64,000 nucleotides of DNA from Gammaproteobacteria bacterium (lineage in GTDB: Bacteria; Pseudomonadota; Gammaproteobacteria; Eutrophobiales; Eutrophobiaceae), in NCBI GenBank assembly GCA_016193395.1, contig JACPSH010000002.1, positions 1-64,000 of the forward strand, read 5' to 3'. This document shows positions 15,118 through 43,234 of this stretch, piece by piece. Every line of letters begins with the position of its first letter. Position 1 is the first letter of the stretch. Position numbers and translations under genes: made by a program. The notes under the pieces are model-generated. The model was not told the origin of the DNA. It made no database searches and worked only from the letters and a program-made list of their open reading frames with translations.

Positions 15118-16047
15118 TCACAACTCGACCTCCATCCCGTCGTAAGCCACTTCCCAGCCTGCTACCTCCACGGCGCGGCGTTCCGCACTATCGGCAAGCA
15201 GGATCGGGTTCGTGGTATTGATGTGAATGAAGATCCTGCGCTGGATGCCCAGATCCCTGAGCGTGGCCAGGGTGCCGTCCGGTCCGGACACGCTCATGTG
15301 ACCCATGCGTTTTCCGGTCTTGACGCCGACCCCTTCACGGATCATCTCGTCGTCGACCCATAGCGTCCCGTCGAAGAAGATCAGATCCGTGCCGCGTAAT
15401 CGGGACGCCAGCGCCGGGGGCATTTCCGCGCACCCTGGCATGTAGACGAATCTGCCGCGACCCGACTTCGCGCGCACTTCCAGCGCGATGGTGTCCTCCT
15501 CCACGGAGCCGAAGTTCGGTCCCTTGGTCGCGTCTTCCAGCCAAAGCGCCACCTTTCCTGGAACCGAAAAGGGCGACACGACGATGCCGCTCGCCTTCCC
15601 TTCCGGCGTCTGCAGTTCAACGGGCTGATCCAGGGTCAGCGGTTCGCGCGTCACAAAAGCCGGGTTGAGGACGTTGAAAATCGAATTCGCCGCCAGCACG
15701 CTGAGAACGCGCCGCGTCGCATAGACCCGCAACGGCTGCGACTCCCGCAGGGTGAGTAATCCGGTGACGTGGTCGACGTCGGCGTTCGTCAGCACGACGC
15801 CGCGGATGGGACTGTCACGCAGTCCCATGCGGGGATGCAGGATTTCGTTTTCGTTGATCTGCTGTCGCAGGTCCGGGGAGGCGTTGAACAGGAACCAGTC
15901 GCGCCCGTCCGAGCTGACGGCGATGGAAGACTGGGTGCGCTGCGGCGCCGCAGGATCGCCGGACCGCGCGCGCCGGCTGTTCGGATGGTTGCAGTTCCAT
16001 TGCGGGTATCCCCCGCCGGCGGCTGCGCCGAGTACTCGAACCTTCAT
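15118..16047 (-). CDS. pqqB: PQQ biosynthesis protein PqqB
   Basis: A metallo-beta-lactamase-fold protein of the PQQ pathway, thought to be an iron-dependent hydroxylase acting on the excised Glu-Tyr-derived intermediate. Clear family blocks: GAAAGGGYPQWNCN at the N-terminus, RTQSSIAVS, NASPDLRQQI, LTNADVDHVTGLLTLRE, SVPGKVALWLEDA, GVGVKTGKRMGHM and FIHINTTNP. Odd: the segment after WNC reads NHPNS, so two of the three cysteines of the CxCxxC zinc site known from other PqqB proteins are replaced (C19, H21, S24). It follows moaE by 28 bases on the same strand, so it appears to be in a moaD-moaE-pqqB operon rather than with pqqCDE. Confidence 0.93.
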   Translation of the reverse strand: MKVRVLGAAAGGGYPQWNCNHPNSRRARSGDPAAPQRTQSSIAVSSDGRDWFLFNASPDLRQQINENEILHPRMGLRDSPIRGVVLTNADVDHVTGLLTLRESQPLRVYATRRVLSVLAANSIFNVLNPAFVTREPLTLDQPVELQTPEGKASGIVVSPFSVPGKVALWLEDATKGPNFGSVEEDTIALEVRAKSGRGRFVYMPGCAEMPPALASRLRGTDLIFFDGTLWVDDEMIREGVGVKTGKRMGHMSVSGPDGTLATLRDLGIQRRIFIHINTTNPILLADSAERRAVEVAGWEVAYDGMEVEL

Positions 16048-18708: not shown

Positions 18709-19098
18709 TCAGTCGTACTTGATGTACTTGAAGCGCGGATCGTCCGGCGTGCCTTCAAGAGCGCTGTCCTGTTCCTTGGCCGGCCGCCACATGACGACTT
18801 CCTCTATCTTCCGGGCCAGTTGAAAGTCCTTGTCCGTCACGCCCTTGGCGGCGTGGTTCATCAGCTTCACGATGACGAAGGCATAAGATACCGTCAGATC
18901 GGGGTGATGGAAGGCGGCCTCAGACAGGTGTCCCACGGTATTGACGACCATGAGAGTCCCCTTCCAGCCGCTGGTCTTGTACTTGCGCCGGATCCAGCCG
19001 TCCTCGTAATACCAGTTCGGCAATTCCTCCTTGAGGCGCGCCTCGATCTCCTCCGGTGCGTAAGTCTCGTCAGCAGTCTTCTTGCGCCATTGCGCCAT
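18709..19098 (-). CDS. Pterin-4a-carbinolamine dehydratase-like protein
   Basis: A 129-residue DCoH/PCD-family protein. The family active-site pattern is intact: SEAAFHHPDLTV supplies the double histidine and LMNHAAKGVTDKDFQLA the third. It is longer than the usual 100-residue enzyme because of a C-terminal tail (WRPAKEQDSALEGTPDD...). No phenylalanine hydroxylase lies nearby; instead it follows the H4MPT-type genes on the same strand by 94 bases, so a role in a modified pterin pathway is more likely than recycling for phenylalanine hydroxylation. The ATG at 19098 has GGAGGG seven bases upstream. Confidence 0.85.
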   Translation of the reverse strand: MAQWRKKTADETYAPEEIEARLKEELPNWYYEDGWIRRKYKTSGWKGTLMVVNTVGHLSEAAFHHPDLTVSYAFVIVKLMNHAAKGVTDKDFQLARKIEEVVMWRPAKEQDSALEGTPDDPRFKYIKYD

Positions 19099-19192
19099 GT
19101 TTTTTCCCTCCTGCATCGAATTGCAAGACGGTGTGACCCGCCGGTTTGCGCCGCAACCCCGCACGCTGCGGATCGATCCGTGCGATGAATCG

Positions 19193-19894
19193 TCAGCGCA
19201 GACCCGCCGCAGCGGTGCTTTCCGGGATGAGGGCGCGGATGATCCGCGCGCGCCGTATGCAGATGCGCTGCTCACGCTCGTTGCCCTTGCATAAGGCACT
19301 GCGGAAGCCGAGATAGTCCACGTTCAGGGACAACAGCTCGGCGACATCCTCCGCTCTCAGCGCGCCGGCCAGGCCGCTGACCAGGCCGGCGCCCTGGGCC
19401 TCTCGCACGAACCCGCGCAGATCCTCCACCGGCACCTTCTGCAGCAGGGAGCCGGTTCGTTTCTCCGCCGTATCCACCATGACGCCCGACAGTCCCGCGG
19501 CGGCGACCTTGCCGACGTTGATTCGGTGCCCGTCCTGTTCCGCAAACGTCACCAGGACGATGTGGATGCCCCCGCGGACCAGCGCGGCCAGCCCTTGCAG
19601 AAGCCGGTCCAGAAACAGGCGATCAAAAAGTCCGACCTTGACGATGTCGACGCCTACCTTCGCCATCGCGGTGGCCGCGTCGCCGATGCGCTGGAGGTCG
19701 TCATTGAAGTCGCCGATGGTGGCGCTGATCTGTACGCGTCCCTCGAGCTGACTGGTAATTTCACGCACGGTCGCAAGCGGCAAGGCGCCCAGGACGCCAT
19801 CGGCCGGCTCCTTGAGATCAATAACGTCGGCGCCGGCTCCGGCCATCAATTGCGCTTCCTCGACGGAGCGTACGCTTGCGAGCATGCCCGTCAC
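19193..19894 (-). CDS. mfnB: (5-formylfuran-3-yl)methyl phosphate synthase-like protein (MfnB/DUF556)
   Basis: A TIM-barrel enzyme of 233 residues. In archaea MfnB condenses two triose phosphates into the furan precursor of methanofuran; homologues occur in H4MPT-using methylotrophs. Signature segments: MLASVRSVEEAQLM, GADVIDLKEPADGVLGAL with the Schiff-base-type lysine, DIVKVGLFDR and VMVDTAEKRTGSLL. It begins with a GTG whose bases overlap the stop of the DUF447 gene by four (GTGA). Its product would feed methanofuran or an analogue used with H4MPT in formaldehyde oxidation. Confidence 0.9.
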   Translation of the reverse strand: MTGMLASVRSVEEAQLMAGAGADVIDLKEPADGVLGALPLATVREITSQLEGRVQISATIGDFNDDLQRIGDAATAMAKVGVDIVKVGLFDRLFLDRLLQGLAALVRGGIHIVLVTFAEQDGHRINVGKVAAAGLSGVMVDTAEKRTGSLLQKVPVEDLRGFVREAQGAGLVSGLAGALRAEDVAELLSLNVDYLGFRSALCKGNEREQRICIRRARIIRALIPESTAAAGLR

Positions 19895-20469
19895 GAGCCG
19901 ACCGCCTCCGCGTGACGCGCGCCCCGGTGCTGCTCAATCCGTTCCAGCAGCCAGGCCCAGGCAATCCGTTCTCTTTCGCCGGCGGTTTTTTCGACCGCAA
20001 TGCGCAGATAATCCAGTTCCCCGTCGATCTTGTCGGCGGACAGGCGATCCAGGCGGCTGACCAGGATGGCTGCCTCCAGCACGGCGGCCTGGGCGCGATT
20101 GAACCCCGCAAAGGGACGGTGACTGGCGTGGTGAACCACCCGGCAGAAGTACTGCGGACGGAGTTCTTCCTCCACGCAGCGTTCGACCTCGACCTCGATG
20201 TGCGCCAGCGCGGACTCGAGCAGGCGGCCCGCGATCCGGCTCGCCGGCCGGGTCGGCCAGTCGTACCGGCCGGTCAGGCAACCGGCAAAGATCATCACGT
20301 CGTCGGTCAAATTGATGACCGCGCAACCCGCGCGCTGCAGATTCTCGAGGGTGGTGGAGGGCCGAAAGGGGGCGATCACGTATCGCCCTTCCGCCTCGCG
20401 AATACCCATTGGCGCAACGTGCACGCCGCCGTCCGCGTTCAGGGTCGTGACAATGGTTTCGTGGATCAA
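19891..20469 (-). CDS. DUF447 family protein of the H4MPT gene set
   Basis: A 192-residue protein with a flavin-reductase-like N-terminal barrel: IHETIVTTLNADGGVHVAPMGI, then RPSTTLENLQRAGCAVINLTDD. DUF447 proteins are shared by methanogens and H4MPT-dependent methylotrophs and usually lie in the H4MPT gene islands; their exact reaction is not settled as far as I know. It overlaps both neighbours by four bases, so the three genes are translated as a unit. The C-terminal half is helical and less conserved. Confidence 0.88.
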   Translation of the reverse strand: MIHETIVTTLNADGGVHVAPMGIREAEGRYVIAPFRPSTTLENLQRAGCAVINLTDDVMIFAGCLTGRYDWPTRPASRIAGRLLESALAHIEVEVERCVEEELRPQYFCRVVHHASHRPFAGFNRAQAAVLEAAILVSRLDRLSADKIDGELDYLRIAVEKTAGERERIAWAWLLERIEQHRGARHAEAVGS

Positions 20470-21923
20470 CCGGGTTTCCTTCTGGTCTTTCGCCTGCGTT
20501 TCCGGCTTGCCTGCAACGTGGGGCCCGCGACCTTGTATGCCCCGCCCTTCAGCGCGTGCACGGCGGCAGCGTCTTCATTCCGTTCCGCGGGCGGCGCCAC
20601 CGCGACCCCCCAGTTGAGCGGCTCGTCCTGCACGTAACGCTTGCCGAGCTGGAAGGCCACCTGCGCCTTGGCCAATTCTACTCCCATATAGAAAGCATGG
20701 GGTGCGTCATCCTGCAGCAGGGACAGGCCGCGAAACAGTTCGAAGGCGTCGGTCCCGGTGAGCATCCCGTCCCGGTTGAACACGTGGATCCCCGATTCCG
20801 TGACCTGGACCCGGTAGCTGGGATCGCGGATCTCCGCCGCCAATTCGGCGACTTCCCGGGCGGTGTAGGGAAACGGCTTGCGTTCGTGGGTTGTCAGCAG
20901 GCCCCCGTCCAGACCTTTGGGAAGACTGCCTTCGGCCCGCGCGGCATACATGATGCGCCGGGCCCGATCGGCCTCGCGCACGGCGGAACGCGCATGCTCG
21001 CTCACCTCCGTCGTGAGAACGCTGGTCACGCCCAGTTCCGAGATAAGCCCGAACAGGACGGCGTTGATGCCCGTCGTGTCCGCCTCGGTCAACTCGGTGA
21101 GATTGCCAATGCCCATCATGACATCGATGTCCGCGCAGCGGGCGCGCAACTCGCAGTACCTCTGCAGGGAGCGGGCAAGACCGAAATGAATGGGATCGAG
21201 AACGCTATCGGCAATGAATGTCCGCCCGCGGGATCGCATGCGATCGATCGCGCGATACAGGGATTCCATGTCGCCGTGATTCTCCGGGATGATCACCGGC
21301 GTGGCCGCTACTTCGTCCGCCACCCAAAGCGTGCTCTCCGTCAGGCTCAGAACGTAATCCGCTCCTGCGCGCGCGCCGCGAAGCAGGTCTTCGGCGTTCA
21401 GCGAATCGATGCTGACCCGGAATCCCTGCGTTTTCAGTGCCTCTACTGCCGGCTCCAGATGCGGAAACGCCGTGTCCGGAAGACAGCCGATATCGATCAC
21501 GTCCGCTCCGTCCGCGGCAAACCGGCGCGCGCGCTCCAGGACGCCCTCGACACCGAGTGCGGGCGCATCCACGATTTCGGCGAAAATCAACACGTCCGTC
21601 TGGCTCAGATCGATGGCCGCACAGCCGCGGCCGAAGAAAACCGGCAAATCCTTGAGGTCATCCGGCCCACGGATCACCGGTACACCCAGCGCCGTTGCGG
21701 GTTCCTGCAATTCGCCACGGCACAGGCCCGGCACAATGACCCTCGCGGCGCCGTTCACGGAAGTCACGCGCCGACGGATCATCGTGGCCGTCATGAGGGC
21801 GGCCACGCTCAGGCCGATATTCCGGACCTCGTAGCTGAAATCGGCCGGTTGCATCGATTCCAGCACGCGATTCAGCCGGGCTTCGGCGAGTTTGCCCGTG
21901 AGAAACAGGATGTGTTCCGGCAT
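20466..21923 (-). CDS. Dihydropteroate synthase-related protein of the H4MPT gene set (DUF6513)
   Basis: A 485-residue protein. The N-terminus (HILFLTGKLAEARLNRVLES) is the DUF6513-type domain; the centre is a TIM barrel related to dihydropteroate synthase (FAADGADVIDIGCLPDT, GFRVSIDSLNAEDLLRGARAG, VIIPENHGDMESL); the C-terminal part includes FPYTAREVAELAAEIRDPS and a very basic tail. In methylotrophs such genes are found in the H4MPT biosynthesis island and are proposed to act at the pterin-coupling step. It is distinct from the canonical folP at 24.6 kb. It leads the overlapping three-gene run. Confidence 0.88.
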   Translation of the reverse strand: MPEHILFLTGKLAEARLNRVLESMQPADFSYEVRNIGLSVAALMTATMIRRRVTSVNGAARVIVPGLCRGELQEPATALGVPVIRGPDDLKDLPVFFGRGCAAIDLSQTDVLIFAEIVDAPALGVEGVLERARRFAADGADVIDIGCLPDTAFPHLEPAVEALKTQGFRVSIDSLNAEDLLRGARAGADYVLSLTESTLWVADEVAATPVIIPENHGDMESLYRAIDRMRSRGRTFIADSVLDPIHFGLARSLQRYCELRARCADIDVMMGIGNLTELTEADTTGINAVLFGLISELGVTSVLTTEVSEHARSAVREADRARRIMYAARAEGSLPKGLDGGLLTTHERKPFPYTAREVAELAAEIRDPSYRVQVTESGIHVFNRDGMLTGTDAFELFRGLSLLQDDAPHAFYMGVELAKAQVAFQLGKRYVQDEPLNWGVAVAPPAERNEDAAAVHALKGGAYKVAGPTLQASRKRRRKTRRKPG

Positions 21924-22302
21924 GGGGAACCCGGCGCATGGGAAGCGCGATTATAAGTTTCGTGACCCTTGCTCCGTTAACAGCTTGATGCAAAAGTCCA
22001 TCCATGCACTTTTGCATCTCGCGTCAAGCAAAACAAAGCTTCGGCCTGTCGAACCACGTGACCGGAGCGTGGTCGAAATGAACCATTTCTATGGCTGCCA
22101 AAGCGACTGGACGGACCGCGGTGGCCCAGGGGAATTTGCCCGGATAGTATATAATTATATGAAAGTTAAGGCGTTTCATAGGAGAATCGCCTTCCTGCCA
22201 GTGAATCGCCGCCGCTGGCACGAATCTCGCTGGAACTGTTGGAATCAAACCGCAATTCAGACAGGGGCGAATCCCGGCTGACAGATTGAGGGCGGAATCC
22301 GA
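21924..22302. other. Noncoding region between H4MPT and pqqCDE operons
   Basis: A 379-base divergent gap. It holds the GATGCAAAA hairpin (21987-22018), a second stem TCGAACCACG/CGTGGTCGA with one bulged base (22049-22076), and an AT-rich stretch with a TATAAT box at 22150-22155 that may belong to a pqqC promoter, though no convincing -35 box lies at the right distance. A 40-codon frame follows at about 22160 but has no recognisable product and is not a PqqA precursor. Confidence 0.5.
21976..22018 (+). repeat. GATGCAAAA hairpin with shared 20-mer
   Basis: Perfect 11-base arms GATGCAAAAGT (21987-21997) and ACTTTTGCATC (22008-22018) around a ten-base loop. The preceding GTTAACAGCTTGATGCAAAA (21976-21995) is identical to the minus-strand sequence 4599-4580. 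In both places the 20-mer precedes a hairpin in the transcription direction of the next gene. Confidence 0.7.
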
Positions 22303-23040
22303 ATGGGCGCAGAAGAAAGAGTTTCATGGTCGCGTGAAGAATTCGAGCGCAGGCTGCGCGCCAAGGAAAAGTATTACCACATAAACCATCCCTTCCATGT
22401 CCTGATGAACTCGGGGAAACTCGAGAAACCGGCGATCCAGGGATGGGTGGCAAATCGCTTCTATTACCAGACCACGATCCCGGTCAAGGACGCCGCGATC
22501 ATGGCAAACTGCCGGGATCGGGACGTGCGTCGCCTGTGGATCCAGCGCATCATCGATCATGACGGCACGACGGGCGACGAAGGCGGCATCGAGGCCTGGC
22601 TGCAACTGGGCGAGGCGGTCGGATTGAAACGCGAGGATCTATGGTCCGAGCGGCACGTCCTGCCCGGCGTACGCTTCGCGATCGACGCCTATTTCAATTT
22701 TGCGCGCAACGCGACCTGGCAGGAAGCAGCCTGCTCTTCGCTGACGGAGCTGTTCGCGCCCAGGATTCACCAGAAACGCCTGGACACGTGGCCGGAACAT
22801 TACCCCTGGATTGACGCGCAGGGCTACGCTTATTTCCGGAAACGGCTTCGGGAAGCACGCCGCGATGTTGAACACGGACTGAGCGTGACGCTGGACCATT
22901 TCCGGACGCGCGAGGATCAGGAGCGCGCATTGAACATCCTGCAGTTCAAACTGGATGTCCTCTGGACGATGCTGGATTCGATGTGGATGGCCTACGTCGA
23001 GCACAAGCCGCCGTATTTCTGCGTTGCTGAAAACGCATGA
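22303..23040 (+). CDS. pqqC: Pyrroloquinoline-quinone synthase PqqC
   Basis: Cofactor-free oxidase that carries out the final ring closure and eight-electron oxidation giving PQQ. The all-helical fold is recognised by [80 protein letters not shown] and [12 protein letters not shown]. Length (245) is normal. The ATG at 22303 follows a G-rich AGGGCGGA segment. Its stop overlaps the pqqD start by four bases. Confidence 0.97.
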
Positions 23041-23333
23041 GCGCGGCTTCGAATGATCTTGCAGTGCCGGAACTGGCGCCGACTTTCCGGTTCCAATGGG
23101 AAGAGGTGCAGGGTTGCTTTGTCATCCTTTATCCCGAAGGCATGGTGAAATTGAGCCCGAGCGCCGGGGAAATCATGAAACGCTGCGACGGCCAGAAGAG
23201 CGTGTCGCAGATTATCGCGGACCTCAAGACCCAGTTCCCGCAAACCGAGCTGGAAACCGACGTCCGCAGGTTCCTGGAGGAAGCGAATGAACACGGTTGG
23301 ATCCGCCCGAAAATGAGGATTTCAAGCCCATGA
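23037..23333 (+). CDS. pqqD: PQQ peptide chaperone PqqD
   Basis: A 98-residue RiPP recognition element that binds the PqqA precursor and presents it to PqqE. Typical core: [27 protein letters not shown] in two conserved strands followed by [20 protein letters not shown]. The N-terminus has a short extra lead ([14 protein letters not shown]). It overlaps pqqC and pqqE by four bases each, so translation of the three is coupled. Confidence 0.95.
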
Positions 23334-24529
23334 GCAACGCAGTGACGCCAAGCGCAGCAGCTTCGCGACCCTCTGTTAAGCCGCCACTATGGTTGCTGGC
23401 GGAGTTGACCTATGCCTGTCCGCTGCAGTGCCCCTATTGCTCCAATCCCATGGAGATCGCGGCGATCAAGCAGGAGTTGGACACGTCGCATTGGTTCCGC
23501 GTGATGCAGCAGGCGCGCAGGATGGGCGCGACCCAGCTCGGCTTTTCCGGCGGGGAACCGCTGATCCGCCGCGACCTGGAGCAATTGATAGCGGAAGCCC
23601 GGCGACTCGGCTATTACACGAACCTGATCACCTCGGGCGTGGGCATGGACGAGCAGCGCATCAAGGCTTTCAAGGAAGCGGGTCTGGATCACATACAGGT
23701 CAGTTTCCAGGCCAGCTCCGAGGAGCTCAATAATTTCATCGCCGGCACCGATGCGTTCGAGCACAAAATGCACATGGCGCGCCTGGTCAAGCAGTACGGC
23801 TACCCGATGGTCCTGTGTTTCGTGCTGCATCGGAAGAACGAGCACCAGATCCGTGAAATTCTGGATCTGGCCGTCGCCCTCGAGGCGGATTACGTGGAGC
23901 TGGCGACGACACAGTATTACGGCTGGGCGTTCCACAACCGCGAACAGCTTCTTCCCACGCGCGAACAGCTTGTAAACGCGGAAAAGGTCGCCAAGGAATA
24001 CCAGGACAAGATGAAGGGCCGGATGAAGATCTATTACGTCATCCCGGACTACTACGAAATCCGCCCGAAGCGCTGCATGGACGGCTGGGGGTCGGTGTTT
24101 CTCACTATCGCCCCGGACGGCACCGCCCTGCCCTGTCACGCCGCCCGGCAGCTTCCCGGACTGAGCTTCCCCAACGTCCGCGACCATGACATCGACTGGA
24201 TCTGGAGCGAGTCGCCGGCCTTCAACCGCTTCCGCGGCTTAGACTGGATGAAGGAGCCGTGCCGGAGCTGTCCGGAGAAGGAGAAGGATCTCGGCGGCTG
24301 CCGCTGCCAGGCCTACATGTTGACGGGCGACGCGGCCAACGCCGACCCCGTCTGCGACAAGTCACCCCACCACCACGTGGTCACCGAGCGGATTGAGCAT
24401 GTCAATCGGCTCGCGGGTACACGTGAATTCGAAGCCAAGCCGCTCGTGTTCCGGAACATGAAGAATTCCCGGAAGATTGCGGGGTCATCGGTGCTCAGCA
24501 ACGCTCGGGAGACTGCAGAGAGCGAATAG
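23330..24529 (+). CDS. pqqE: PqqA peptide cyclase PqqE
   Basis: Radical SAM/SPASM enzyme that forms the carbon-carbon bond between the Glu and Tyr of PqqA. The SAM-cluster cysteines are in ACPLQCPYC (C30, C34, C37); [13 protein letters not shown] is the SAM-binding GGEP loop; auxiliary cluster cysteines lie in [32 protein letters not shown] and VCDKSPHH. The start ATG overlaps the pqqD stop (ATGA); the frame opens earlier but the overlap and family length support 399 residues. The C-terminal 40 residues form a variable tail. Confidence 0.96.
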
Positions 24530-24555
24530 AATATAGAATGTAATTCTGCATTCTA
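24528..24555. repeat. ATTCT-rich dispersed element, copy 2
   Basis: Follows the pqqE stop and reaches the folP stop. On the minus strand 24542-24528 reads TACATTCTATATTCT, identical to 15 bases at 6619-6633. It also contains an inverted repeat TAGAATG (24534-24540) / CATTCTA (24549-24555). It may serve as a weak bidirectional terminator between the convergent genes. Confidence 0.55.
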
Positions 24556-25383
24556 GCTTCTCCCCGCTTCCTTAATCGCCCAGGCGACCTGCATGGCCTG
24601 GCGATTGGCCTTCACATCATGCACGCGCAGAATCCGGACGCCCGCCAGCACGCCGAGGACCGTCGCCGCGCAGGTTGCGCCCACGAGCTCGTCGGATTGC
24701 TGTTCAGCGCAGATCGATCCCATGAAGCGTTTGCGGCTGGCGCCCAGCAGCACTGGAAGGCCGGTATCCGTGAAGCGGGGAAGATGGGCCATCAGAACGA
24801 GATTGTGCCGCCTGGATTTCCCGAAGCCGATACCCGGATCGATGATGATCCGATCCCGGGCCACCCCGGCAGCGAGGGCCGCATCCACGCGCCGCAGGAG
24901 AAAGTCCCTGATTTCCTCCACGACATTTTCATAGCGCGGCTCGTCCTGCATGGTCGCCGGCGTCCCCTGCATGTGCATGAGGACGATGGGTACCCCCTTT
25001 TCCGCGGCAACGGCCAGCATTTCCGGATCGTCGCGGCCAGCGGAGATATCGTTGATGAGCGAGGCCCCGGCGTCGAGCGCTTCCCGGGCCACTTCCGCGG
25101 AGGTCGTGTCGATGCTGACGCCCACCGCCAGCGGCAACTGCCCGCGGAGCCGCTGGATGACCGGGAGGGTTCGGCGGATCTGTTCTGCCGCGGCTACGCG
25201 CTGCGCGCCGGGACGCGTGGATTCACCGCCGACATCAATGATGTCCGCTCCTTCCTCGACCATGGCCTCCGCGTGCGCCACCGCTAAGCCGTGATCGAAA
25301 AACCGCCCCCCGTCCGAGAAACTGTCGGGCGTGACGTTGACAATTCCCATCAACATGGGCTGCTGGTGGTCCAGCAATTTCAT
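24553..25383 (-). CDS. folP: Dihydropteroate synthase FolP
   Basis: Canonical folate enzyme joining p-aminobenzoate to the pterin pyrophosphate. Signature MGIVNVTPDSFSDGGRF near the N-terminus, DIIDVGGESTRPGAQ, VGVSIDTTSAEVAREAL, SLINDISAG, IVLMHMQGTPATM and IIDPGIGFGKS. At 276 residues it has normal size from the ATG at 25383; an upstream frame adds unrelated sequence from inside the neighbouring gene. The ATG overlaps the iminopeptidase stop by four bases, so the two are coupled. Separate from the DHPS-like gene at 20.5-21.9 kb. Confidence 0.96.
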   Translation of the reverse strand: MKLLDHQQPMLMGIVNVTPDSFSDGGRFFDHGLAVAHAEAMVEEGADIIDVGGESTRPGAQRVAAAEQIRRTLPVIQRLRGQLPLAVGVSIDTTSAEVAREALDAGASLINDISAGRDDPEMLAVAAEKGVPIVLMHMQGTPATMQDEPRYENVVEEIRDFLLRRVDAALAAGVARDRIIIDPGIGFGKSRRHNLVLMAHLPRFTDTGLPVLLGASRKRFMGSICAEQQSDELVGATCAATVLGVLAGVRILRVHDVKANRQAMQVAWAIKEAGRS

Positions 25384-26327
25384 GAGAGCCTCGAGGCCAA
25401 ATCGTCGGTGGCGGCGATCAGCGCATCCGTCATGACCGGTTCCCCGGCCAGGTGGCCGCCTTCGTTGACGATCAGCAGTTCCGAGCGCGGCGCGGCCCTG
25501 TGCAGCGCCCATGACCCCTCGAGGGTGCAGGTCAGGTCTCGTCGACCGTGAATAATGCGGGTGGGCACGTCCGGCAACCGGACCGCGCTCGCCAGGATGT
25601 GGTTCTCGGCGATGAAATACCGGTGGTAAGCATAATGTGTCTCGATGGCGACCTGGTCCAGCATGCGATCAGGATCTTCCTCCTCCACGCTCGCCTCCGG
25701 CAGCAGGTAAGTCGTGACCCGAGTGGCCCATGTTGACCAGGCCCGCGCGGCCCGGCGCTTCGCCTCGGGGTCCCGTCCATGTACATGCGCATGAAGCGCC
25801 GCGACCAGATCGTGGCGCTGCGACTCGGGCACGGATTGAACGAAGTCCGCCCAGTAGTCCGGAAAGATCCGGTTCGCCCCGTCGCGTGCGAACCAGTCGA
25901 GCTCGGCCCGGCGGGCAAGGAATACTCCCCGAAGGATCATGGCCAAAACCCGTCCGGGGTTCTGTTGCGCATAGAGCAGCCCCAGCGTGGCACCCCAGGA
26001 GCCGCCGAAGAGGACCCACCGGTCGATATTCAGATGCAGGCGGATGCGCTCGATATCGGCCAGGAGCCGCTGGGTGGTGTTGTCCTCGACCGAGCCGCGT
26101 GGAGCGGAGCGATGACATCCGCGCTGGTCGAAGAGGACGACGCGGTATCGCGCCGGATCGAAATAGCGTCTGTGATTCTCATTGCAGCCCGTTCCCGGGC
26201 CGCCGTGCAGAAATACGACTGGAATGCCGCCCGGGTTGCCCGCTTCCTCGACATGCAGACGATGAGGCGGGCCGACGTCCAGATAAAAAGCGTTGAATGG
26301 CGCGATTTCAGGATACAGAGCCCGCAT
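25380..26327 (-). CDS. pip: Proline iminopeptidase
   Basis: Alpha/beta-hydrolase that releases N-terminal proline from peptides. The oxyanion segment is VVFLHGGPGTGCNENHRRYF, the catalytic serine is in FGGSWGATLGL, the aspartate in GRRDLTCTLEGSW and the histidine in NEGGHLAGEP. LFDQRGCHRSAPRG is the family's second block. The start used (ATG at 26327, RALYPEIAPF) gives 315 residues, the family size; in-frame ATGs further upstream are possible and none has a strong ribosome site. Coupled to folP downstream. Confidence 0.93.
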   Translation of the reverse strand: MRALYPEIAPFNAFYLDVGPPHRLHVEEAGNPGGIPVVFLHGGPGTGCNENHRRYFDPARYRVVLFDQRGCHRSAPRGSVEDNTTQRLLADIERIRLHLNIDRWVLFGGSWGATLGLLYAQQNPGRVLAMILRGVFLARRAELDWFARDGANRIFPDYWADFVQSVPESQRHDLVAALHAHVHGRDPEAKRRAARAWSTWATRVTTYLLPEASVEEEDPDRMLDQVAIETHYAYHRYFIAENHILASAVRLPDVPTRIIHGRRDLTCTLEGSWALHRAAPRSELLIVNEGGHLAGEPVMTDALIAATDDLASRLS

Positions 26328-26401
26328 GGATTGGCGTCCCGATTCCACCTGCATGCCGGCGGGCCTGGTCCTGCTGGTCCCGTTGTCCCGGCACCGATCG
26401 C

Positions 26402-27340
26402 TCAAAGATCGTTCAAGATGTCCTGGCGTTTGCGCTCGTACTCTTCGTCGGAAATGAGTTTCTTCTGGCGCAGTTCGTCAAGGGTTTTCAGTCGTGATTC
26501 GATTGGGGCGGTGGACTCCGCGCCCGTCTGTCCACTGCCCACTTCCTTCCTCATCCGCGCCATCTCGAGACGCATTTCGCGCCGCTCCTGGGCAAATCGC
26601 GCGGCCTCCTGCCGCAGGGCCTCGTCACTGACCGGTGCATTCGCCTCCTCGCCTGCCTTTTCCTCGGCGAGACGCGCGGCCGAAGCGCGGTTGACGTCGA
26701 TAACCAGCCAGTCGAGCCGCCGTTTGCCGCCTTCGTTGTAGACCTCGACACCATCCCCGGTCATCACCGCGCTCTCGAAATCAGACGGGTCGTCGCGCCT
26801 GCCGTGCCGGAAATAATACTTGATCTCCATGACGCCGGCGCTGCTGGTGGCGCGTTCCTGGAACTTGTCCGGCGGACGCATGAAATCGCCGATGATGATG
26901 TTCAGCCGATCGTTGCTGTAGAAGGCCCGGCCGGCCGTGTAGCTGAGGTCCCTGAAGCCGAGGAATTTCGTGTCGGTTCGCGAAACGGCAAAGACGATGT
27001 CCTGTCCGGGAGAGGCCTTTCTCAGGGCAATGGCCAGTTGCTGCCCGAGAAGCCTGGCCTGTTCCGGGGAAAATACTTCCTCGATTTCGTCCTTCTTGAA
27101 CCAATGCTTGTCCCAGACCTGGATGTCGATCAGCGAATTGGCGATCGCCGCCGGATCCAGGTTGACGGGGTGCTGATTCGGGACCGGGCGACCGCTTGCA
27201 GCGTCGTCCTGCTCGGTCAGCCTGACATAGAGATTCAGTCCGGACTTCCAGATATCCTCGTCTGCACGGGCCAGCGGCGACCAACTGGCGGTCACCAGTA
27301 GCGCAAGCAGAAATCGCACTATATTGATCTTCGAAAACAT
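26402..27340 (-). CDS. Exported protein with C-terminal SHOCT domain, unknown function
   Basis: A 312-residue protein with a signal peptide (INIVRFLLALLVTASWSPLARA) and a central domain I do not recognise (VWDKHWFKKDEIEEVFSPEQ, DIVFAVSRTDTKFLGFRDLS, LNIIIGDFMRPPDKFQER). A Glu/Arg-rich helical, probably coiled-coil segment (about 225-275) leads to a SHOCT module at the end (LDELRQKKLISDEEYERKRQ), a short domain thought to mediate oligomerisation. The ATG at 27340 has GGAGA nearby. It is preceded by the porin terminator, so it likely has its own promoter. Confidence 0.72.
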   Translation of the reverse strand: MFSKINIVRFLLALLVTASWSPLARADEDIWKSGLNLYVRLTEQDDAASGRPVPNQHPVNLDPAAIANSLIDIQVWDKHWFKKDEIEEVFSPEQARLLGQQLAIALRKASPGQDIVFAVSRTDTKFLGFRDLSYTAGRAFYSNDRLNIIIGDFMRPPDKFQERATSSAGVMEIKYYFRHGRRDDPSDFESAVMTGDGVEVYNEGGKRRLDWLVIDVNRASAARLAEEKAGEEANAPVSDEALRQEAARFAQERREMRLEMARMRKEVGSGQTGAESTAPIESRLKTLDELRQKKLISDEEYERKRQDILNDL

Positions 27341-36630: not shown

Positions 36631-38058
36631 CTATTCTTCTTCCCGCAAATTGTGCTTCTTAATTCGATACCGCAATGCCATGCGCGTGACGCCGAGCTGG
36701 CGCGCCGCCTTTGAAACATTGCCATTCGCCACGAGGAGCGCGCGCCTGATGAGCGCCAGTTCAGCCTCTTCGAGCGTGACATTGGCCGCCACCGATTCGG
36801 CTTTGGCCGCGGGCACGGCGCCAGGCGCCAGCGAAAGCGTGTTCGGAGTCAAATCCGCGCCACCGCTGAGGAGCACCGCGCGCTCGATCATGTGCTTCAG
36901 TTCGCGCACATTGCCCGGCCATGCGTAGGATTCGATTGCCGACTTTGCTCCATCGCTGATTCGCGGCGGCCGCATGCCGTAGCGCTTTGCCGTCTGTCCC
37001 GCGAAATGCTCCGCGAGCAGCGCAATGTCGGCGCCGCGCTCGCGCAGCGGCGGCAAGGCGATGCTCAGGACGTTCAGGCGGTAATACAGATCGGCACGAA
37101 ATTCCCCGCGTTCCGCGAGGGCCGCGATATCGCGATTGGTCGCGGCGATGAACCAGGCGGCGATCGGTCGTTCCTGCGTGGTGCCCACGCGACGCAACGT
37201 GCGCCTTTCCAGCACCGCGAGCAGCTTGGCCTGTAGAGGGGGCGGCAATTCGCCGATTTCGTCCATGAACAGCACGCCGTCCTCCGCCGCTTCGATCAGA
37301 CCGGTACGCGCGATATGCGCGCTCGTGAACGCCCCCTTTTCGTGACCGAACAACTCGGCCTCGATGAGATCCTTCGGCAGGCTTGCGCAGTCGACATGCA
37401 CGAACGGTTTCACATTGCGCCAGCTGCCGGCATGCAGCATGCGCGCGGCCACGTCCTTGCCCGTCCCGGTCTCCCCGAGGATCAGGATATTCGGCGGCAC
37501 GGACTCCGAAACCTCCGCTAAGCGGCTGATGCGCGAGATCTGGTGACGCACGGATTCGACGGCTGCGCAGCGGCCTAGGAACTCCACGCCCTCGGTGGAA
37601 TGCTGCTGCCGCTTGGATGAATACACCAGCTTGCGGGCGAGCGCTCCTTTGTCGAGCACCTTCTCCACGTTGACCATGAGCTCATCCAGGTCGACCGGTT
37701 TCTTCAGGTAATCTGCGGCGCCCGCCTTCATGGCGGATACGGCATCGTCCACCTCGCCGTAGGCGGAGAGCACGAGCACCACCGCGTTGGTTTCCGGCCT
37801 GCCGCGGATGTCGCCCAGGAAATCCAGACCCGAACCGTCCGGAAGGCGCATGTCGAGCAGAATGAGATCCGGCTCCAGGGAGTCCAGCAACCGCCGCGCG
37901 CTTGCCAGATCCAGCGCGACTTCGCTGTGATAGCCCGCCCGCTGCAGCCGCTTCTGCACTGCGCGGGCGAATACCTGCTCGTCATCGACGATCAGGACGC
38001 GCTTTTCGACAATCGGGACTTCTGCGGAAGTCACAACCGGGCTGGATTTCTGCGTCAT
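36631..38058 (-). CDS. Sigma-54-dependent response regulator (NtrC family)
   Basis: A 475-residue activator: receiver (D25, D26, phospho-acceptor D69 in LILLDMRLPDG, K in DYLKKPVD), AAA+ domain with Walker A GETGTGKDVAARM and Walker B LFMDEIGELPPPLQ, and a C-terminal Fis-type HTH (NVSKAARQLGVTRMALRYRIK). The sigma-54-contacting loop reads GAFTSA instead of the usual GAFTGA. It shares a four-base overlap with the histidine kinase gene upstream. The pair is divergent from pqqA, which has a -24/-12-like promoter, so pqqA is a natural target. Confidence 0.94.
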   Translation of the reverse strand: MTQKSSPVVTSAEVPIVEKRVLIVDDEQVFARAVQKRLQRAGYHSEVALDLASARRLLDSLEPDLILLDMRLPDGSGLDFLGDIRGRPETNAVVLVLSAYGEVDDAVSAMKAGAADYLKKPVDLDELMVNVEKVLDKGALARKLVYSSKRQQHSTEGVEFLGRCAAVESVRHQISRISRLAEVSESVPPNILILGETGTGKDVAARMLHAGSWRNVKPFVHVDCASLPKDLIEAELFGHEKGAFTSAHIARTGLIEAAEDGVLFMDEIGELPPPLQAKLLAVLERRTLRRVGTTQERPIAAWFIAATNRDIAALAERGEFRADLYYRLNVLSIALPPLRERGADIALLAEHFAGQTAKRYGMRPPRISDGAKSAIESYAWPGNVRELKHMIERAVLLSGGADLTPNTLSLAPGAVPAAKAESVAANVTLEEAELALIRRALLVANGNVSKAARQLGVTRMALRYRIKKHNLREEE

Positions 38059-39527
38059 GAACGTGCCTCCCTCCCGTGCGTGGCCGGGGCGCTGATCATG
38101 GCGTCGGTTCCCTGCCCAGACCGGACCCTGAACCGGAGATCCCAGCCGTGGCTCTGGCAGATCTTGAACGCCACCGGGATCCCGAGCCCGGTGCCGAAGC
38201 GCTTCGTCGATGGACCAGGCTCCAGATCGCGAGGGTTCGGCTCGAACGGCAGCCCGGGACCCTGGTCACTCAACCGTATGATGAAGCGTCCGTTCTCGCG
38301 CGCGAACGCGAATACCACCTCCCCGCCGCGTGGCGAGGCCTCGACGGCGTTCGTCAGCAACCCGGTGATGGCCTGTTCCATGAGGTCGGGGTCGACCTCG
38401 AGCTCCTGATCGAACTGCCAATTCTCGCGGCCCACCCGAATCGCCTTCTCATCCAGCTTCGCCTTGAGCAGATCGAGCGCCGCGCTGCACAACTCCGATG
38501 CCTTGGTCATGCGCAGATTCGGCTGCAGGGGGTGCAGATACGACACAAGCGCGCTGACCCATCTGCCGAGCCTGTCGATGGTCTCGAGGATTGCCTCGCG
38601 GCATTCGCGCAGGTCCTCGGGGCTGTCCACGTGCTCAAGGACCTGGACCGTGGCCCGTATGCTGGCCAGCGGATTGCGGATATTGTGCGCCACAACGGGC
38701 ACCAGCGTGCCGAGGGCCGCCTGTTTCTCGGCCTCGACCAACGCGCTGTTACTCGCGGCCAGATCCGCCGCCATGCGATTGATGGATTGAGCGATTTCCG
38801 CCACTTCGATCACGCCGCTTTCCGGAATGCGGTGATCGAGGTGCCCCCGACTGATGACCGCGGCCCCTTCTTTCACCGTCGCCATGGGCCGGACGAATCC
38901 CGTTCGCACGATGCGGGACGTCATGAATACGAGAAACAACGCCAGCACCATCACCACGGGAATGACCACGGGCGCATAGCGGGTCCATTGTTTTCGCGTC
39001 TGGTCGATTGCCTCGCGCTTGCCCGTCAGCAGCGACTTGAAACTGTTATAGCGATCCTCGAAGCGGCCGACCATGTGTTCGGCGAAACGCGGGTCCAGGA
39101 TGCGCAACCGCACGACGTAGCTGATGTCGTAGGGATCGCCGAAGACCTTGTTCATGTCCTTCTGGATTTCACGGTAGGAAAGCTGCAGTGCCTGAATGGC
39201 GTCATCCTCGTCGCGCGCGGCGGAACTGCGCCGCAACTGGTTGAAGTCGTTGTCGATCCGCCGCGAATACTCGGCGTACAGCTGCAATGCTTCGCGTTCC
39301 TCCAGCACCTTGGCGCGGATCGCCTCCTGGATTTGCCGGAACAGCTCGCTTCGGATCTGCTCCGTGAGATACACCAGGTTGATGATCCGCACGGACTCGC
39401 CCGAGGTCTGCCTCCAGTAATAAATCGACAGACCCGACAACAGACCCGTGACCGCCACCAGGATGAGAAACGCTATCTCATGGATAAACAGAAGGTTTCG
39501 CAGCGATCGCTGACGCTCCTTGCGCAT
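38055..39527 (-). CDS. Membrane sensor histidine kinase, partner of the NtrC-type regulator
   Basis: A 490-residue kinase: TM1 (LLFIHEIAFLILVAVTGLLS), a long helical periplasmic domain (about 45-185), TM2 (APVVIPVVMVLALFLVFMTS), HAMP, HisKA with phospho-His in VVAHNIRNPLASIRATVQVL, and HATPase_c (LLTNAVEASPRGGEV, DQGPGLPF, GTGLGIPVAFKI). The H-box has HN where HE is the rule, a known variation. It opens the two-gene operon that runs away from pqqA. The signal is unknown; the context suggests an alcohol, C1 compound or lanthanide-related cue. Confidence 0.92.
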   Translation of the reverse strand: MRKERQRSLRNLLFIHEIAFLILVAVTGLLSGLSIYYWRQTSGESVRIINLVYLTEQIRSELFRQIQEAIRAKVLEEREALQLYAEYSRRIDNDFNQLRRSSAARDEDDAIQALQLSYREIQKDMNKVFGDPYDISYVVRLRILDPRFAEHMVGRFEDRYNSFKSLLTGKREAIDQTRKQWTRYAPVVIPVVMVLALFLVFMTSRIVRTGFVRPMATVKEGAAVISRGHLDHRIPESGVIEVAEIAQSINRMAADLAASNSALVEAEKQAALGTLVPVVAHNIRNPLASIRATVQVLEHVDSPEDLRECREAILETIDRLGRWVSALVSYLHPLQPNLRMTKASELCSAALDLLKAKLDEKAIRVGRENWQFDQELEVDPDLMEQAITGLLTNAVEASPRGGEVVFAFARENGRFIIRLSDQGPGLPFEPNPRDLEPGPSTKRFGTGLGIPVAFKICQSHGWDLRFRVRSGQGTDAMISAPATHGREARS

Positions 39528-39660
39528 GGGTCGAGTATACCGGCCCTGGTTCGATTTGGTTCAAATAAACCACTTCGGCTGGTCAAAATCACACCGACCA
39601 GCCGTTCCCGGCCATCGAAGTCGTGGTTAGGAGATGGACCGTATTGAGGAGAGTTTGTAC

Positions 39661-39680
39661 TGTAACACATTGTTTTTACA
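39661..39680. promoter_or_regulatory. Imperfect palindrome, candidate enhancer site for the NtrC-type regulator
   Basis: TGTAACACATTGTTTTTACA is a 20-bp imperfect palindrome (7 of 10 pairs match) in an AT-rich stretch, about 36 bases upstream of the -24 element of the pqqA promoter. Such spacing is closer than most enhancers but acceptable. It could also serve the divergent kinase gene. Confidence 0.4.
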
Positions 39681-39715
39681 TCGATACTAGCGAGATTTGG
39701 AATCAGTTCAGCAGA

Positions 39716-39731
39716 TGGCATGGCTTTCGCA
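39716..39731 (+). promoter_or_regulatory. Sigma-54-like -24/-12 promoter of pqqA
   Basis: TGGCATGGCTTTCGCA has GG and GC exactly ten bases apart and fits TGGCACG-N4-TTGC with one mismatch in each half. It lies 81 bases before the pqqA start, between pqqA and a divergent sigma-54 activator gene. Predicted transcription starts near 39742. Confidence 0.6.
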
Positions 39732-39811
39732 GGAGCAAGCATGCCGCTGCCGGGCCGGTGCACCTGCCCGATCCGGGGAAGCGGAGACGACCACCAACCA
39801 GGAGACTGTCC

Positions 39812-39886
39812 ATGAAGTGGGAATCACCTGAGTACAGCAACATGCGCTTCGGTTTCGAAGTCACGATGTACATCAACAACAAGTAA
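39812..39886 (+). CDS. pqqA: PQQ precursor peptide PqqA
   Basis: A 24-residue peptide beginning MKWESPEYSNMRFGFEV and ending TMYINNK. The conserved Glu-x3-Tyr of EVTMY is the pair crosslinked by PqqE and excised to build PQQ; the surrounding FGFEVTMY is characteristic of PqqA. AGGAG lies about seven bases before the ATG. The gene is 15 kb from pqqCDE and 24 kb from pqqB, standing alone between a sigma-54-like promoter and a strong terminator, so it makes a short, separately controlled message. Confidence 0.95.
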   Translation: MKWESPEYSNMRFGFEVTMYINNK

Positions 39887-39893
39887 TGTTCGC

Positions 39894-39940
39894 GGCTCTT
39901 TGAGCCACAAGTTGAAGAAGGGGCCGCAAGGCCCCTTTCT
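39894..39940 (+). terminator. Terminator after pqqA
   Basis: A small stem GGCTC (39894-39898) / GAGCC (39902-39906) is followed by the strong GC stem GGGGCC (39920-39925) / GGCCCC (39930-39935) with a GCAA tetraloop and T-rich TTTCTTATTT. The second is a typical intrinsic terminator, 34 bases past the pqqA stop. Confidence 0.85.
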
Positions 39941-40038
39941 TATTTCCCGAGAGCACGCAGAGCAGCACCGCAGTCAACCCGTGCAGTAGAATCGAAACCG
40001 GTCGCAGCGATCCGGCAGCGGGGCGTGACGGATATCCC

Positions 40039-40698
40039 ATGGGCGGGGGTTGCGTAATCTTCGCTGTCACTGTGTTTCAGTTTTTGGTACTTTTCAACAA
40101 ACCGGGCGAACTCCGGGAGCAACATCGATTGGCGATTCGGGCGCACATTCTGCTGCTGATCGGCCTGGCGTTCTTGGCGTGCCCTGCGGTGTTCGCGGTT
40201 GACACGGGTTCGTACCGACTGGAAATTTCGAAATCGGCCCGTGAACTCCGCGTCATGCAGGGCGACCAGGTCATCCGCCGCTTCCACGCCGCCATCGGCA
40301 AGGGCGGCCTCGGCACCAAGCGTCGGCTCGGGGACAACAAGACGCCGGACGGGCATTACCGCATTGTGAACTTCAGGGCGGACAGCCGCTTTCACTTCTT
40401 CATGCAACTCGACTATCCCAATCTGCTCGATGCCTGGCATGGCTACCGCAACGAGCTCATCAATGCAGGCGAGTTCCGCGCGATTGCAACGGCCTACCAC
40501 AGCGGCGCCGCGCCCCCCCAGGAAACGGCGCTCGGGGGTTACATCGGGATCCACGGCATCGGCGAATTGACTGACCGGAAGCTCGATATTCACGCGTCGA
40601 ACAACTGGACCGAGGGCTGCATCGCGCTGACGAACGAGGAGATCAATGAGCTCCTCGCATACGTTGCCATGGGCACGCGTGTCGTGATCCGCGAGTGA
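40039..40698 (+). CDS. L,D-transpeptidase (YkuD) family protein
   Basis: A periplasmic cell-wall enzyme, 219 residues in the longest frame. After a signal-like segment (AHILLLIGLAFLACPAVFA) comes the YkuD domain: YRLEISKSARELRVMQGD, KTPDGHYRI, the catalytic histidine in GYIGIHGIG and the catalytic cysteine in HASNNWTEGCIALTNEEI. The family forms or cleaves 3-3 peptidoglycan crosslinks or anchors lipoproteins. The true start may lie further in, nearer the signal peptide, since the first 25 residues look spurious. It opens a four-gene plus-strand run (28 bases to the next gene). Confidence 0.88.
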   Translation: MGGGCVIFAVTVFQFLVLFNKPGELREQHRLAIRAHILLLIGLAFLACPAVFAVDTGSYRLEISKSARELRVMQGDQVIRRFHAAIGKGGLGTKRRLGDNKTPDGHYRIVNFRADSRFHFFMQLDYPNLLDAWHGYRNELINAGEFRAIATAYHSGAAPPQETALGGYIGIHGIGELTDRKLDIHASNNWTEGCIALTNEEINELLAYVAMGTRVVIRE

Positions 40699-40726
40699 CC
40701 CTCCCCACCGTCCAGGATCGCCCGGC

Positions 40727-41236
40727 GTGACCATTGCCAACCGGCGATCAGGCCTGCCACTGCACGCGCTCCTGTTGTTTTTCTGCCTGGCGCCGGGAGC
40801 CGGACAGGCGACGGAGCTCCAAGCGCTCTACGATCGCCCGACGATGAAACCGTTGCCGGATGTGCTCGACGATCTGGAATTCGCAATCACGGAACGAAAC
40901 TTCCGCATCACCGGACGGTTGAGCATCGGCAAGGCTATACGCGAACGCGAAGGCGCTGGATTTCCGGATTATGAAGTCATCCTGTTCTGCAACGTGGGAC
41001 TGGCGCGCGACATGCTGAAACTGGAACCGACATACGTCGTCTTCTGTCCCGCCAAGGTTGCCGTGCGTGAAAGCGGGTCGGAGTTGATCATTACGGCGCC
41101 GCTGCTCCCCGAAGACACGCACCGCGAGGAGTTGAATGCCCTCGCCGCCAGGATCAATACTCTGCTCCGTCAGATTGTGGATTACGGTGCCGAAACTTGG
41201 CCGGCCGTCAGCCGTCACAACGTGTCGCCGCAATGA
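40727..41236 (+). CDS. Exported DUF302-domain protein
   Basis: A 169-residue protein starting at a GTG, with a signal peptide (LPLHALLLFFCLAPGAGQA) and a DUF302 domain (VLDDLEFAITERNFRITGRL, YEVILFCNVGLARDMLKLEP, LITAPL-like IITAPLLPED). DUF302 proteins bind or sense small ligands in a few cases, but the function is mostly unknown. Its stop overlaps the next gene's ATG by four bases. Confidence 0.85.
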   Translation: MTIANRRSGLPLHALLLFFCLAPGAGQATELQALYDRPTMKPLPDVLDDLEFAITERNFRITGRLSIGKAIREREGAGFPDYEVILFCNVGLARDMLKLEPTYVVFCPAKVAVRESGSELIITAPLLPEDTHREELNALAARINTLLRQIVDYGAETWPAVSRHNVSPQ

Positions 41237-41754
41237 ACGTCTGGGGCGTGCTGACGCTTGCCGGCGCCTATGCGCTTCCCGCGCTGCTCGCGCTGGGCAT
41301 CCTCGCGCGTTCATCGCGGTCGCTCTCGCTCAGGACCTCCGCGCTGGCTGTGACCGTCGCTCTTTATGCGATCACCTTGATGTCCCTGCCCCAATTGCTG
41401 GGTTGGCCCGCGAAGGAATCTCCTCCGGACAGGTTCCGCTTCGTTGCGGCGGATATCCAGCAGCCGGACAAGGCCACGCGCGACCCGGGCGCCATCTACT
41501 TGTGGGTGACGGACGCCGCGGAGTTGTCCACCTCACCCCCGCCGCGCGCCTACCGCCTTCCCTATTCCGGACCGCTCCACGAGGTGGTGGGCAGCGCCAT
41601 GGCGAAATTGCAGTCGGGTTCGCCGCAACTAGGCGAGTTCAGGCACGTTGGAAGTTCCGGCTTCGGAGGGATTGAATCATCCGAACCCTCTGTGCCGGCA
41701 GAAGTTCCGATCAGGTTCTATGATATGTCTGATCCCCTTTTCCCGGACAAGTAA
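41233..41754 (+). CDS. Inner-membrane protein, unknown
   Basis: A 173-residue protein with two N-terminal transmembrane helices (VLTLAGAYALPALLALGILA, SALAVTVALYAITLMSLPQL) and a periplasmic or cytoplasmic C-terminal domain (FRFVAADIQQPDKATRDPGAIYLWVTD). I do not recognise the family. The start overlaps the DUF302 gene (ATGA) and the end overlaps or abuts the VWA-FHA gene, so it is translated as part of this operon. Confidence 0.72.
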   Translation: MNVWGVLTLAGAYALPALLALGILARSSRSLSLRTSALAVTVALYAITLMSLPQLLGWPAKESPPDRFRFVAADIQQPDKATRDPGAIYLWVTDAAELSTSPPPRAYRLPYSGPLHEVVGSAMAKLQSGSPQLGEFRHVGSSGFGGIESSEPSVPAEVPIRFYDMSDPLFPDK

Positions 41755-43234
41755 GGTGGTACGAACCGGAACCGCGTTCCTGGCAGGCCTGTTGATCGCG
41801 GCAGCTCGCCCGGCTGCATCCTGGGAGTCCCTGACCGCTGATCTGGACATCGACTGCAGCCAACCCGAAGAACGCCGGCTGGACTGCCGCTTCCGCACGC
41901 TTGATGGTCAGGCGCCCGCCGGGATCCGCGCCAGTTCCGGCGGCGAGAACCTGACCGTGGAAGACCTGGCGGCATACCCATCCTCTGGCGCGGTTTCAGC
42001 GATCCTTTTCCTCGTCGATACCAGCGACCCTGGCCGGCAGGCCGTGATCGAAAAGAACAAATCGCACATCCGCGCCCTGCTGAGCGCGGCGCGATCTCAC
42101 CACCGGTTCGGGCTGGCGACGTTCGACAGCGATCTGAGGATCACGGCGCCTATCGGATCCACGGTGGAACAGGTGTTGGGCGCTTCGCAGGGCGTCGCGG
42201 CCAGGGGAATGACGACCGAACTCTACCGCAGCGCGCTGGGCGCCATTGACGCGCTCGCCCGCGTCGAGGCCGATCGACGCGCGATCATCCTCTTTTCCGA
42301 CGGCCAGGCGGAAGACGAGGCGTACTTCCACCAGGACGTGGTGCGCGCGGCGCACGAGGCCGGGGTGATCATCAACAGTCTCGGCTTCCCGCGATCCGTT
42401 CCGCGATCCGTCGCGCTCCAGTCATTGCGCAGGCTCAGCGGGGAGACCGGCGGCGTGTTCATGGAATCGGACCTGCAGTTCGAACTCCCCGACAACTTTG
42501 TCAGACGGCAGTTCAGCGCGATCGATTCGGGGGGGCGCTTCCGGGTCGCGATGGATCCCCTGTCCGGGAAGCCTGCGGCGTCGCGGGAAGTAGAGATTGT
42601 CCTGCAGTTGCCCGTCGGCGCGGTCACCGTGCGCGTACCGGTGTCGGTCGGAACCCCAGCGCCTGCGGCCCCGATCGCCGCAGTCCAGGAACGTCCCGCG
42701 CAGGAGCCGCGCATCGGCCCGCTGCCGGTGCCGGCCCGACGCAGCGGAATCGATCTGTGGCTCTGGTACGCCGTGCCGATCGCGCTCGGTCTCCTGATCG
42801 TGCTCGCGCTCGTCACGTTGTGGTTCAGCCTCCGCCGCCCGGCCGCGCTTCCCCACCATGCCGTTCCCGCGCCAGTCGACATCAAACCGCTGGCCTACCT
42901 TGTGACGCAGGATGAAAAGGCGACGCGTTATGCGGTCCGGAGCCCGGTCTTCCGCATCGGCCGCAGCCGGGACAACGAACTGACCCTGGAAGACAGCTCT
43001 GTATCCCGGCGGCACGCCGAGATCCAACGCAGCCAGGATGGCAGTTTCATGATCGTCGATCGCGATTCGACCAACGGCGTATTCGTGAACAATGAAAGGG
43101 TGGGCCGACGCGAACTCCACGAGGGCGACATCATCGAGATCGGCGATATCTCGCTGCGGTTCTCCGCATCCCCGCTGGATCATCCGATCGCAGAGAACAC
43201 GGCCCTGCTGCATACGCGGGCGCCGCGGGCCTGA
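41720..43234 (+). CDS. VWA-FHA transmembrane protein
   Basis: About 504 residues. A signal/anchor (TGTAFLAGLLIAAARPAAS) leads to a von Willebrand A domain (about 85-270: AILFLVDTSDPGRQ gives the DxS-type metal site, FGLATFDSDLRI, AIILFSDGQAED), a Pro-rich linker, a transmembrane helix (LWLWYAVPIALGLLIVLALVTLWF) and a cytoplasmic FHA domain (FRIGRSRDNELTLEDSSVSRRHAEI, DRDSTNGVFVNNERV), which binds phosphothreonine. The expected topology is periplasmic VWA and cytoplasmic FHA, making it a possible reader of the receiver-Ser/Thr kinase. The start is either this ATG or a GTG at 41756 after the previous stop. Confidence 0.88.
   Translation: MICLIPFSRTSKVVRTGTAFLAGLLIAAARPAASWESLTADLDIDCSQPEERRLDCRFRTLDGQAPAGIRASSGGENLTVEDLAAYPSSGAVSAILFLVDTSDPGRQAVIEKNKSHIRALLSAARSHHRFGLATFDSDLRITAPIGSTVEQVLGASQGVAARGMTTELYRSALGAIDALARVEADRRAIILFSDGQAEDEAYFHQDVVRAAHEAGVIINSLGFPRSVPRSVALQSLRRLSGETGGVFMESDLQFELPDNFVRRQFSAIDSGGRFRVAMDPLSGKPAASREVEIVLQLPVGAVTVRVPVSVGTPAPAAPIAAVQERPAQEPRIGPLPVPARRSGIDLWLWYAVPIALGLLIVLALVTLWFSLRRPAALPHHAVPAPVDIKPLAYLVTQDEKATRYAVRSPVFRIGRSRDNELTLEDSSVSRRHAEIQRSQDGSFMIVDRDSTNGVFVNNERVGRRELHEGDIIEIGDISLRFSASPLDHPIAENTALLHTRAPRA

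Follow-up and report, generated by a model that had tools for sequence, protein, structure and literature searches.

One of the questions raised by this locus is whether a gene for a PQQ precursor peptide, standing alone beside a divergently transcribed two-component system, is controlled by that system, and whether such control extends beyond the peptide. PQQ serves methanol and other alcohol dehydrogenases as their cofactor. It is poorly understood how the supply of its 24-amino-acid precursor peptide is matched to the enzymes, and the pqq regulators that we found described are of other kinds. The window, by which we mean the whole stretch of 64,000 nucleotides analysed, comes from a Gammaproteobacteria bacterium of the Eutrophobiaceae (GCA_016193395.1, contig JACPSH010000002.1). 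Here pqqA does stand apart from the other pqq genes, as the first-pass annotation of this DNA had observed, with pqqB and pqqC/pqqE 15-25 kb away. The features of the pqqA locus are as follows.

36631-38058, minus strand: NtrC-type response regulator with REC, AAA+ Sigma54_activat and Fis HTH domains and the loop GAFTSA
38055-39527, minus strand: sensor histidine kinase with a predicted helical N-terminal sensor region, HAMP, HisKA and HATPase
39557-39572, no strand assigned: inverted repeat TGGTTCAAATAAACCA, enhancer-like, separated by 143 bp from the -24 box that follows it and lying 30-45 bp upstream of the start of the kinase
39663-39675, plus strand: IHF-like site TAACACATTGTTT, one mismatch to YAANNNNTTGATW, between the enhancer-like repeat and the -24/-12 box
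39716-39731, plus strand: sigma-54-type -24/-12 element of pqqA1, TGGCATGGCTTTCGCA, assigned from sequence and from the same box before most pqqA copies in relatives
39812-39886, plus strand: pqqA1, a single gene for a 24-residue PQQ precursor peptide (PF08042, E 3.3e-8; TIGR02107, E 2.1e-10)
39917-39938, plus strand: strong intrinsic terminator 3' of pqqA1, GAAGGGGCCGCAAGGCCCCTTT

The PqqA1 peptide, MKWESPEYSNMRFGFEVTMYINNK, scores above the cut-offs of both PF08042 and TIGR02107 and possesses the conserved Glu-x3-Tyr of PqqA in the form EVTMY. The strong terminator that had been proposed after pqqA is present, and the description of pqqA as a solo gene holds to the extent that it is a single gene with its own terminator; however, the same genome encodes a second copy, pqqA2, on contig C56, remote from pqqA1 and followed by a similar hairpin (GGGGCCGCAAGGCCCC-T). 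Beside the kinase/regulator pair, at 40039-43234, are a YkuD-type L,D-transpeptidase and/or hypothetical neighbors, vWA/FHA-like by eye.

The -24/-12 element is exactly as first described, with a ten-base spacing of GG and GC, in a TGGCAYR-N5-TGCW context that is conserved across pqqA copies, and it predicts a transcription start for pqqA1 near position 39742. A single match of this kind in the window is no better than chance, since 10 matches with at most two mismatches were observed and 12.5 were expected. The significance of the pqqA1 box comes instead from its conservation in pqqA orthologs, which the first-pass annotation had set as the check on its proposal and which we found to be widespread. 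We assembled 95 distinct pqqA upstream regions from this genome and its relatives, reached by peptide, kinase and regulator searches. Scored by our own weighting of the consensus against Markov shuffles, the box reaches at least 24 in 66 of the 95 regions (shuffles 1.2%) and at least 21 in 88 (shuffles 11%), the counts being non-independent because the genomes are related, and most of those compared being metagenome assemblies with gaps. Tandem pqqA pairs account for several misses, the second gene of such a pair being served by one promoter common to both. The genome also encodes RpoN, as judged by a Sigma54_AID match on contig C1.

Two variants of the pqqA promoter were seen among the relatives. 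Sixteen pair-adjacent pqqA promoters (L080, L085, L087, L089, L091-L093, L098, L100, L101, L103-L105, L109, L110, L113) are without the C of the -12 GC, having TGAA, TGGA, TGAT or TGTA in its place, a loss that counts against sigma-54 control; in most of these copies a TGCAC-type motif is present some 10 bases further downstream. A divergent pqqA subtype with a peptide ending in VYVR (L150, L152, L154, L155) carries a TTGAT-N4-ATCAA palindrome, FNR/Anr-like, between the enhancer and the -24/-12 box, so that one class of pqqA may be under oxygen control; downstream of the gene in L150 and L155 is a radical-SAM gene resembling pqqE.

The second conserved element is the inverted repeat TGGTT-N6-AACCA, which is found exactly in 57/95 pqqA upstream regions (shuffles 0.02%) and with at most one mismatch in 87/95 (shuffles 1.3%), the pattern having first been noticed in part of the data later counted. 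The repeats are often doubled, mostly 22 bp apart, and begin approximately 100-170 bp upstream of the -24 box. The pattern had already been fixed when three sets were examined: the organism's own genome, kinase loci without pqqA, and further genomes reached through kinase orthologs. A pattern search of the 2.7-Mb genome returned only two exact repeats, one upstream of each pqqA, and among the one-mismatch sites whose flanks were examined, these two steps together constituting the own-genome promoter scan, the site before pqqC is the sole one followed by a good -24/-12 box. Eleven of the 13 further genomes have pqqA, most with enhancer and box. Of 732 upstream regions belonging to other ORFs of these loci, a single one, that separating pqqC from its divergent neighbor in this window, has both enhancer and -24/-12 box.

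It is highly improbable that pqqA is transcribed from a sigma-70 promoter and that the -24/-12 element and palindromes are chance matches. The lone box in the window, not above chance, would fit such an explanation, but no sigma-70-like site was found within 39400-40100, and dozens of pqqA copies share box and enhancer, at frequencies that far exceed those of shuffles and that exceed those in the upstream regions of other genes. Chance matching of box and repeat was rejected on the strength of this conservation relative to shuffles and to the 732 other-ORF regions.

The first-pass annotation had suggested an imperfect palindrome at 39661-39680 as the enhancer. The palindrome exists, but the conserved element inside it is the IHF-like site, and the palindrome was rejected as the enhancer, the conserved repeat being further upstream, at 39557-39572, a site that the first-pass annotation had not listed. 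IHF-like sites with at most one mismatch are present in 50/88 promoters, whereas 12.6 would be expected from shuffles, and they lie mostly 40-55 bp upstream of the -24/-12 box. NtrC, ZraSR and CbrAB-type systems combine a kinase and a REC-AAA+-Fis regulator with tandem enhancers, an IHF site and a -24/-12 promoter. The system described here resembles them in its kinase/regulator build, tandem enhancers, IHF-like site and -24/-12 box, and differs in its enhancer TGGTT-N6-AACCA, its pqq targets and its loop, GAFT[S/N/D/H]A rather than GAFTGA. What sequence statistics show is a set of predicted elements (promoter, enhancer, IHF-like), how far these are conserved, and that the complete arrangement is linked to the pqq genes here; on those grounds we regard the promoter architecture as near certain.

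The same arrangement is not confined to the peptide gene. The features of the pqq enzyme genes in the window are as follows.

15118-16047, minus strand: pqqB (TIGR02108, E 7e-122), within a molybdenum-cofactor gene group
22070-22085, no strand assigned: enhancer-like site of pqqCDE, TGGTCGAAATGAACCA, with one mismatch
22216-22231, plus strand: sigma-54-type -24/-12 element of pqqCDE, TGGCACGAATCTCGCT, about 70 bases before pqqC
22303-23040, plus strand: pqqC (TIGR02111, E 6e-111)
23037-23333, plus strand: pqqD, from the frame translation and a by-eye similarity to a pqqD-like ORF of L367
23297-24529, plus strand: pqqE, with a likely ATG at 23330 (TIGR02109, E 1e-169)

The pqqD gene overlaps both pqqC and pqqE by ATGA. 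The IHF-like site before pqqCDE is weak at best, and the own-genome pattern search found no enhancer-like site with at most one mismatch near pqqB. In relatives the enhancer and -24/-12 arrangement is found before pqqC or approximately 1 kb further upstream of it, and in the latter case pqqB or pqqA likely leads the operon. It had been proposed that PQQ is controlled at the supply of precursor peptide rather than at the enzymes. The second half of that proposal is wrong because pqqCDE has a one-mismatch enhancer-like site and a -24/-12 box, and control of the peptide only was rejected in view of this arrangement and its counterparts at the pqq operons of relatives. What stands of the proposal is sigma-54 control of pqqA with the divergent pair as likely activator, for which the predicted elements are widely conserved.

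Within 18709-26405, pqqC and pqqE are found among pterin and tetrahydromethanopterin-type genes, their neighbors including a 4a-hydroxytetrahydrobiopterin dehydratase, a PRK02227 family member and a dihydropteroate-synthase-like gene. This neighborhood is consistent with a methylotroph. No PQQ-dehydrogenase signature was found in the portion of the genome searched, a minor part of the whole. In two relatives an exact enhancer repeat with a -24/-12 candidate was seen upstream of other genes identified by eye, one TonB-receptor-like (L334, G004:C87) and the other di-heme cytochrome c peroxidase-like (L345, G001:C110), which are possible further targets in those organisms.

The domains of the pair confirm the earlier identification of a divergent NtrC-type sigma-54 activator with its kinase beside pqqA. 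The regulator falls below the NCBIfam equivalog cut-offs for AtoC, NtrC, NtrX and ZraR, the best score being 358.6 bits for AtoC against a cut-off of 714. The structure model of the kinase is of low confidence and its best matches are kinase cores, and therefore no signal can be named from it. Orthologs of the pair are encoded in 39/53 family genomes. The neighboring regulator is likely the activator because of three observations. The pair is divergent to pqqA in 32/40 family loci. The enhancer is found 35-43 bp upstream of the kinase in 6/8 kinase loci that have no adjacent pqqA, including that of the cultured Methylohalomonas lacus, although more distant kinase orthologs have no enhancer near the kinase. 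Finally, pqqA and the pair co-occur across genomes (both in 38, pqqA only in six, the pair only in one, neither in eight; Fisher p 3e-5, without correction for relatedness). The pair was also found, at 42-59% identity, in L202, a public record titled as a Klebsiella pneumoniae metagenome-assembled genome, a label that is probably wrong.

A different enhancer-binding protein encoded elsewhere could control pqqA and pqqCDE with sigma-54 through TGGTT-N6-AACCA, the pair serving the YkuD/vWA/FHA-like genes and its adjacency to pqqA being incidental. In seven loci (L079, L082, L107, L173, L198, L201, L202) the pair keeps that neighborhood even without pqqA, and so it may have other targets. Among the six pqqA-bearing family genomes without the pair is G006, listed as 100% complete and possessing exact enhancer sites; in genomes of this type another activator may act, and G021 and G024 likewise have pqqA with enhancers and no regulator ortholog that we could find. 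Five further regulators of the same class, full-length or nearly so, are encoded in this genome. The enhancer upstream of the kinase even where pqqA is absent, the co-occurrence of pqqA and the pair, and their adjacency in 32/40 loci argue against a different activator, which we consider unlikely. We considered whether the missing pair of G006 was hidden at a contig end that bears an enhancer, and rejected this because the site lies by a dihydropteroate-synthase-like gene.

The loop of the AAA+ domain that contacts sigma-54 is GAFTSA in this regulator. Its scanned orthologs have GAFT[S/N/D/H]A, except for the distant L196, which alone has GAFTGA; in the three other regulators of this genome with a readable motif it is GSFTGA or GAFTGA. 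This departure counts against sigma-54 activation and raises the idea that the conserved repeat is used by the regulator for repression, or for action independent of sigma-54, as by TyrR- or HupR-like members that lack the full GAFTGA, and some family members with altered motifs are indeed sigma-70 regulators (PMC3162934). We judge it very unlikely. At the same position of NorR, where sigma-54 remains engaged, constitutive activity is full if the residue is Asp or Asn and partial if it is Ser (PMC2941729), and the repeat is located at enhancer distance upstream of conserved -24/-12 boxes. Since the S/N/D variants of NorR keep sigma-54 activation, by analogy GAFTSA appears compatible with sigma-54 activation and may raise basal activity. 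Because these residues make NorR partly or fully constitutive, the off-state would have to be kept in another way. On balance we favor a view in which an undescribed two-component system directs a dedicated sigma-54/IHF PQQ regulon, comprising the scattered single-gene pqqA copies, the enzyme operon and the system itself, and in which the AAA+ loop of the regulator naturally carries a residue (Ser, Asn or Asp in GAFTxA) that is partly or fully constitutive in NorR.

We present a hypothetical model in which PQQ synthesis is, quite probably, served by a dedicated sigma-54/IHF/NtrC-type regulon. The membrane kinase would phosphorylate the regulator, which would then bind TGGTT-N6-AACCA upstream of the -24/-12 promoter, often at two copies. 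IHF would bend the DNA between enhancer and promoter, and sigma-54 RNA polymerase would be opened at each of pqqA1, the remote pqqA2 and pqqCDE. The repeat is also present immediately upstream of the kinase, which suggests that the pair controls itself too, in a direction that we can only infer. As pqqA1 and pqqA2 are each closed by a separate terminator, short transcripts could yield plenty of precursor peptide while the same signal, which may be methanol or some other substrate of PQQ enzymes, would raise the enzyme operon.

We found no report of pqqA control by rpoN, sigma-54 or NtrC in the open-access full-text literature, which is weak evidence of novelty and agrees with the earlier suggestion that sigma-54 control has not been described for pqqA. 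The nearest precedent for sigma-54 control of a gene in a PQQ-dependent pathway is Azospirillum brasilense exaA, encoding a quinoprotein alcohol dehydrogenase, which is controlled by sigma-54 together with EraR (Singh et al. 2017, cited in PMC12826043, where the EraR-RpoN two-hybrid interaction serves as a positive control). It differs in its target, the gene for the alcohol dehydrogenase, and in its activator, EraR being called LuxR-type; the pqqA of A. brasilense is reported to depend on RpoE6. The Pseudomonas pqq/ped systems (AgmR, PedR, and indirectly CbrAB) are similar in placing pqq genes under two-component control with PQQ enzymes, but there pqqA lies within one pqq operon and AgmR is the likely regulator; the sigma-54-dependent CbrB is described as acting mostly indirectly, and a cbrB mutant shows raised pqqA (PMC12997753, PMC3480352).

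A common sigma-54 enhancer at many unlinked pqqA copies and at the enzyme operon would constitute a simple, testable control circuit, and Methylohalomonas lacus is a cultured organism that carries it. The bacteria concerned form a group, mostly uncultured, that uses methanol and encodes several scattered copies of pqqA. For the kinase/regulator pair, which has no name and is conserved across many genomes derived from metagenomes, the proposed regulon would supply a likely function.
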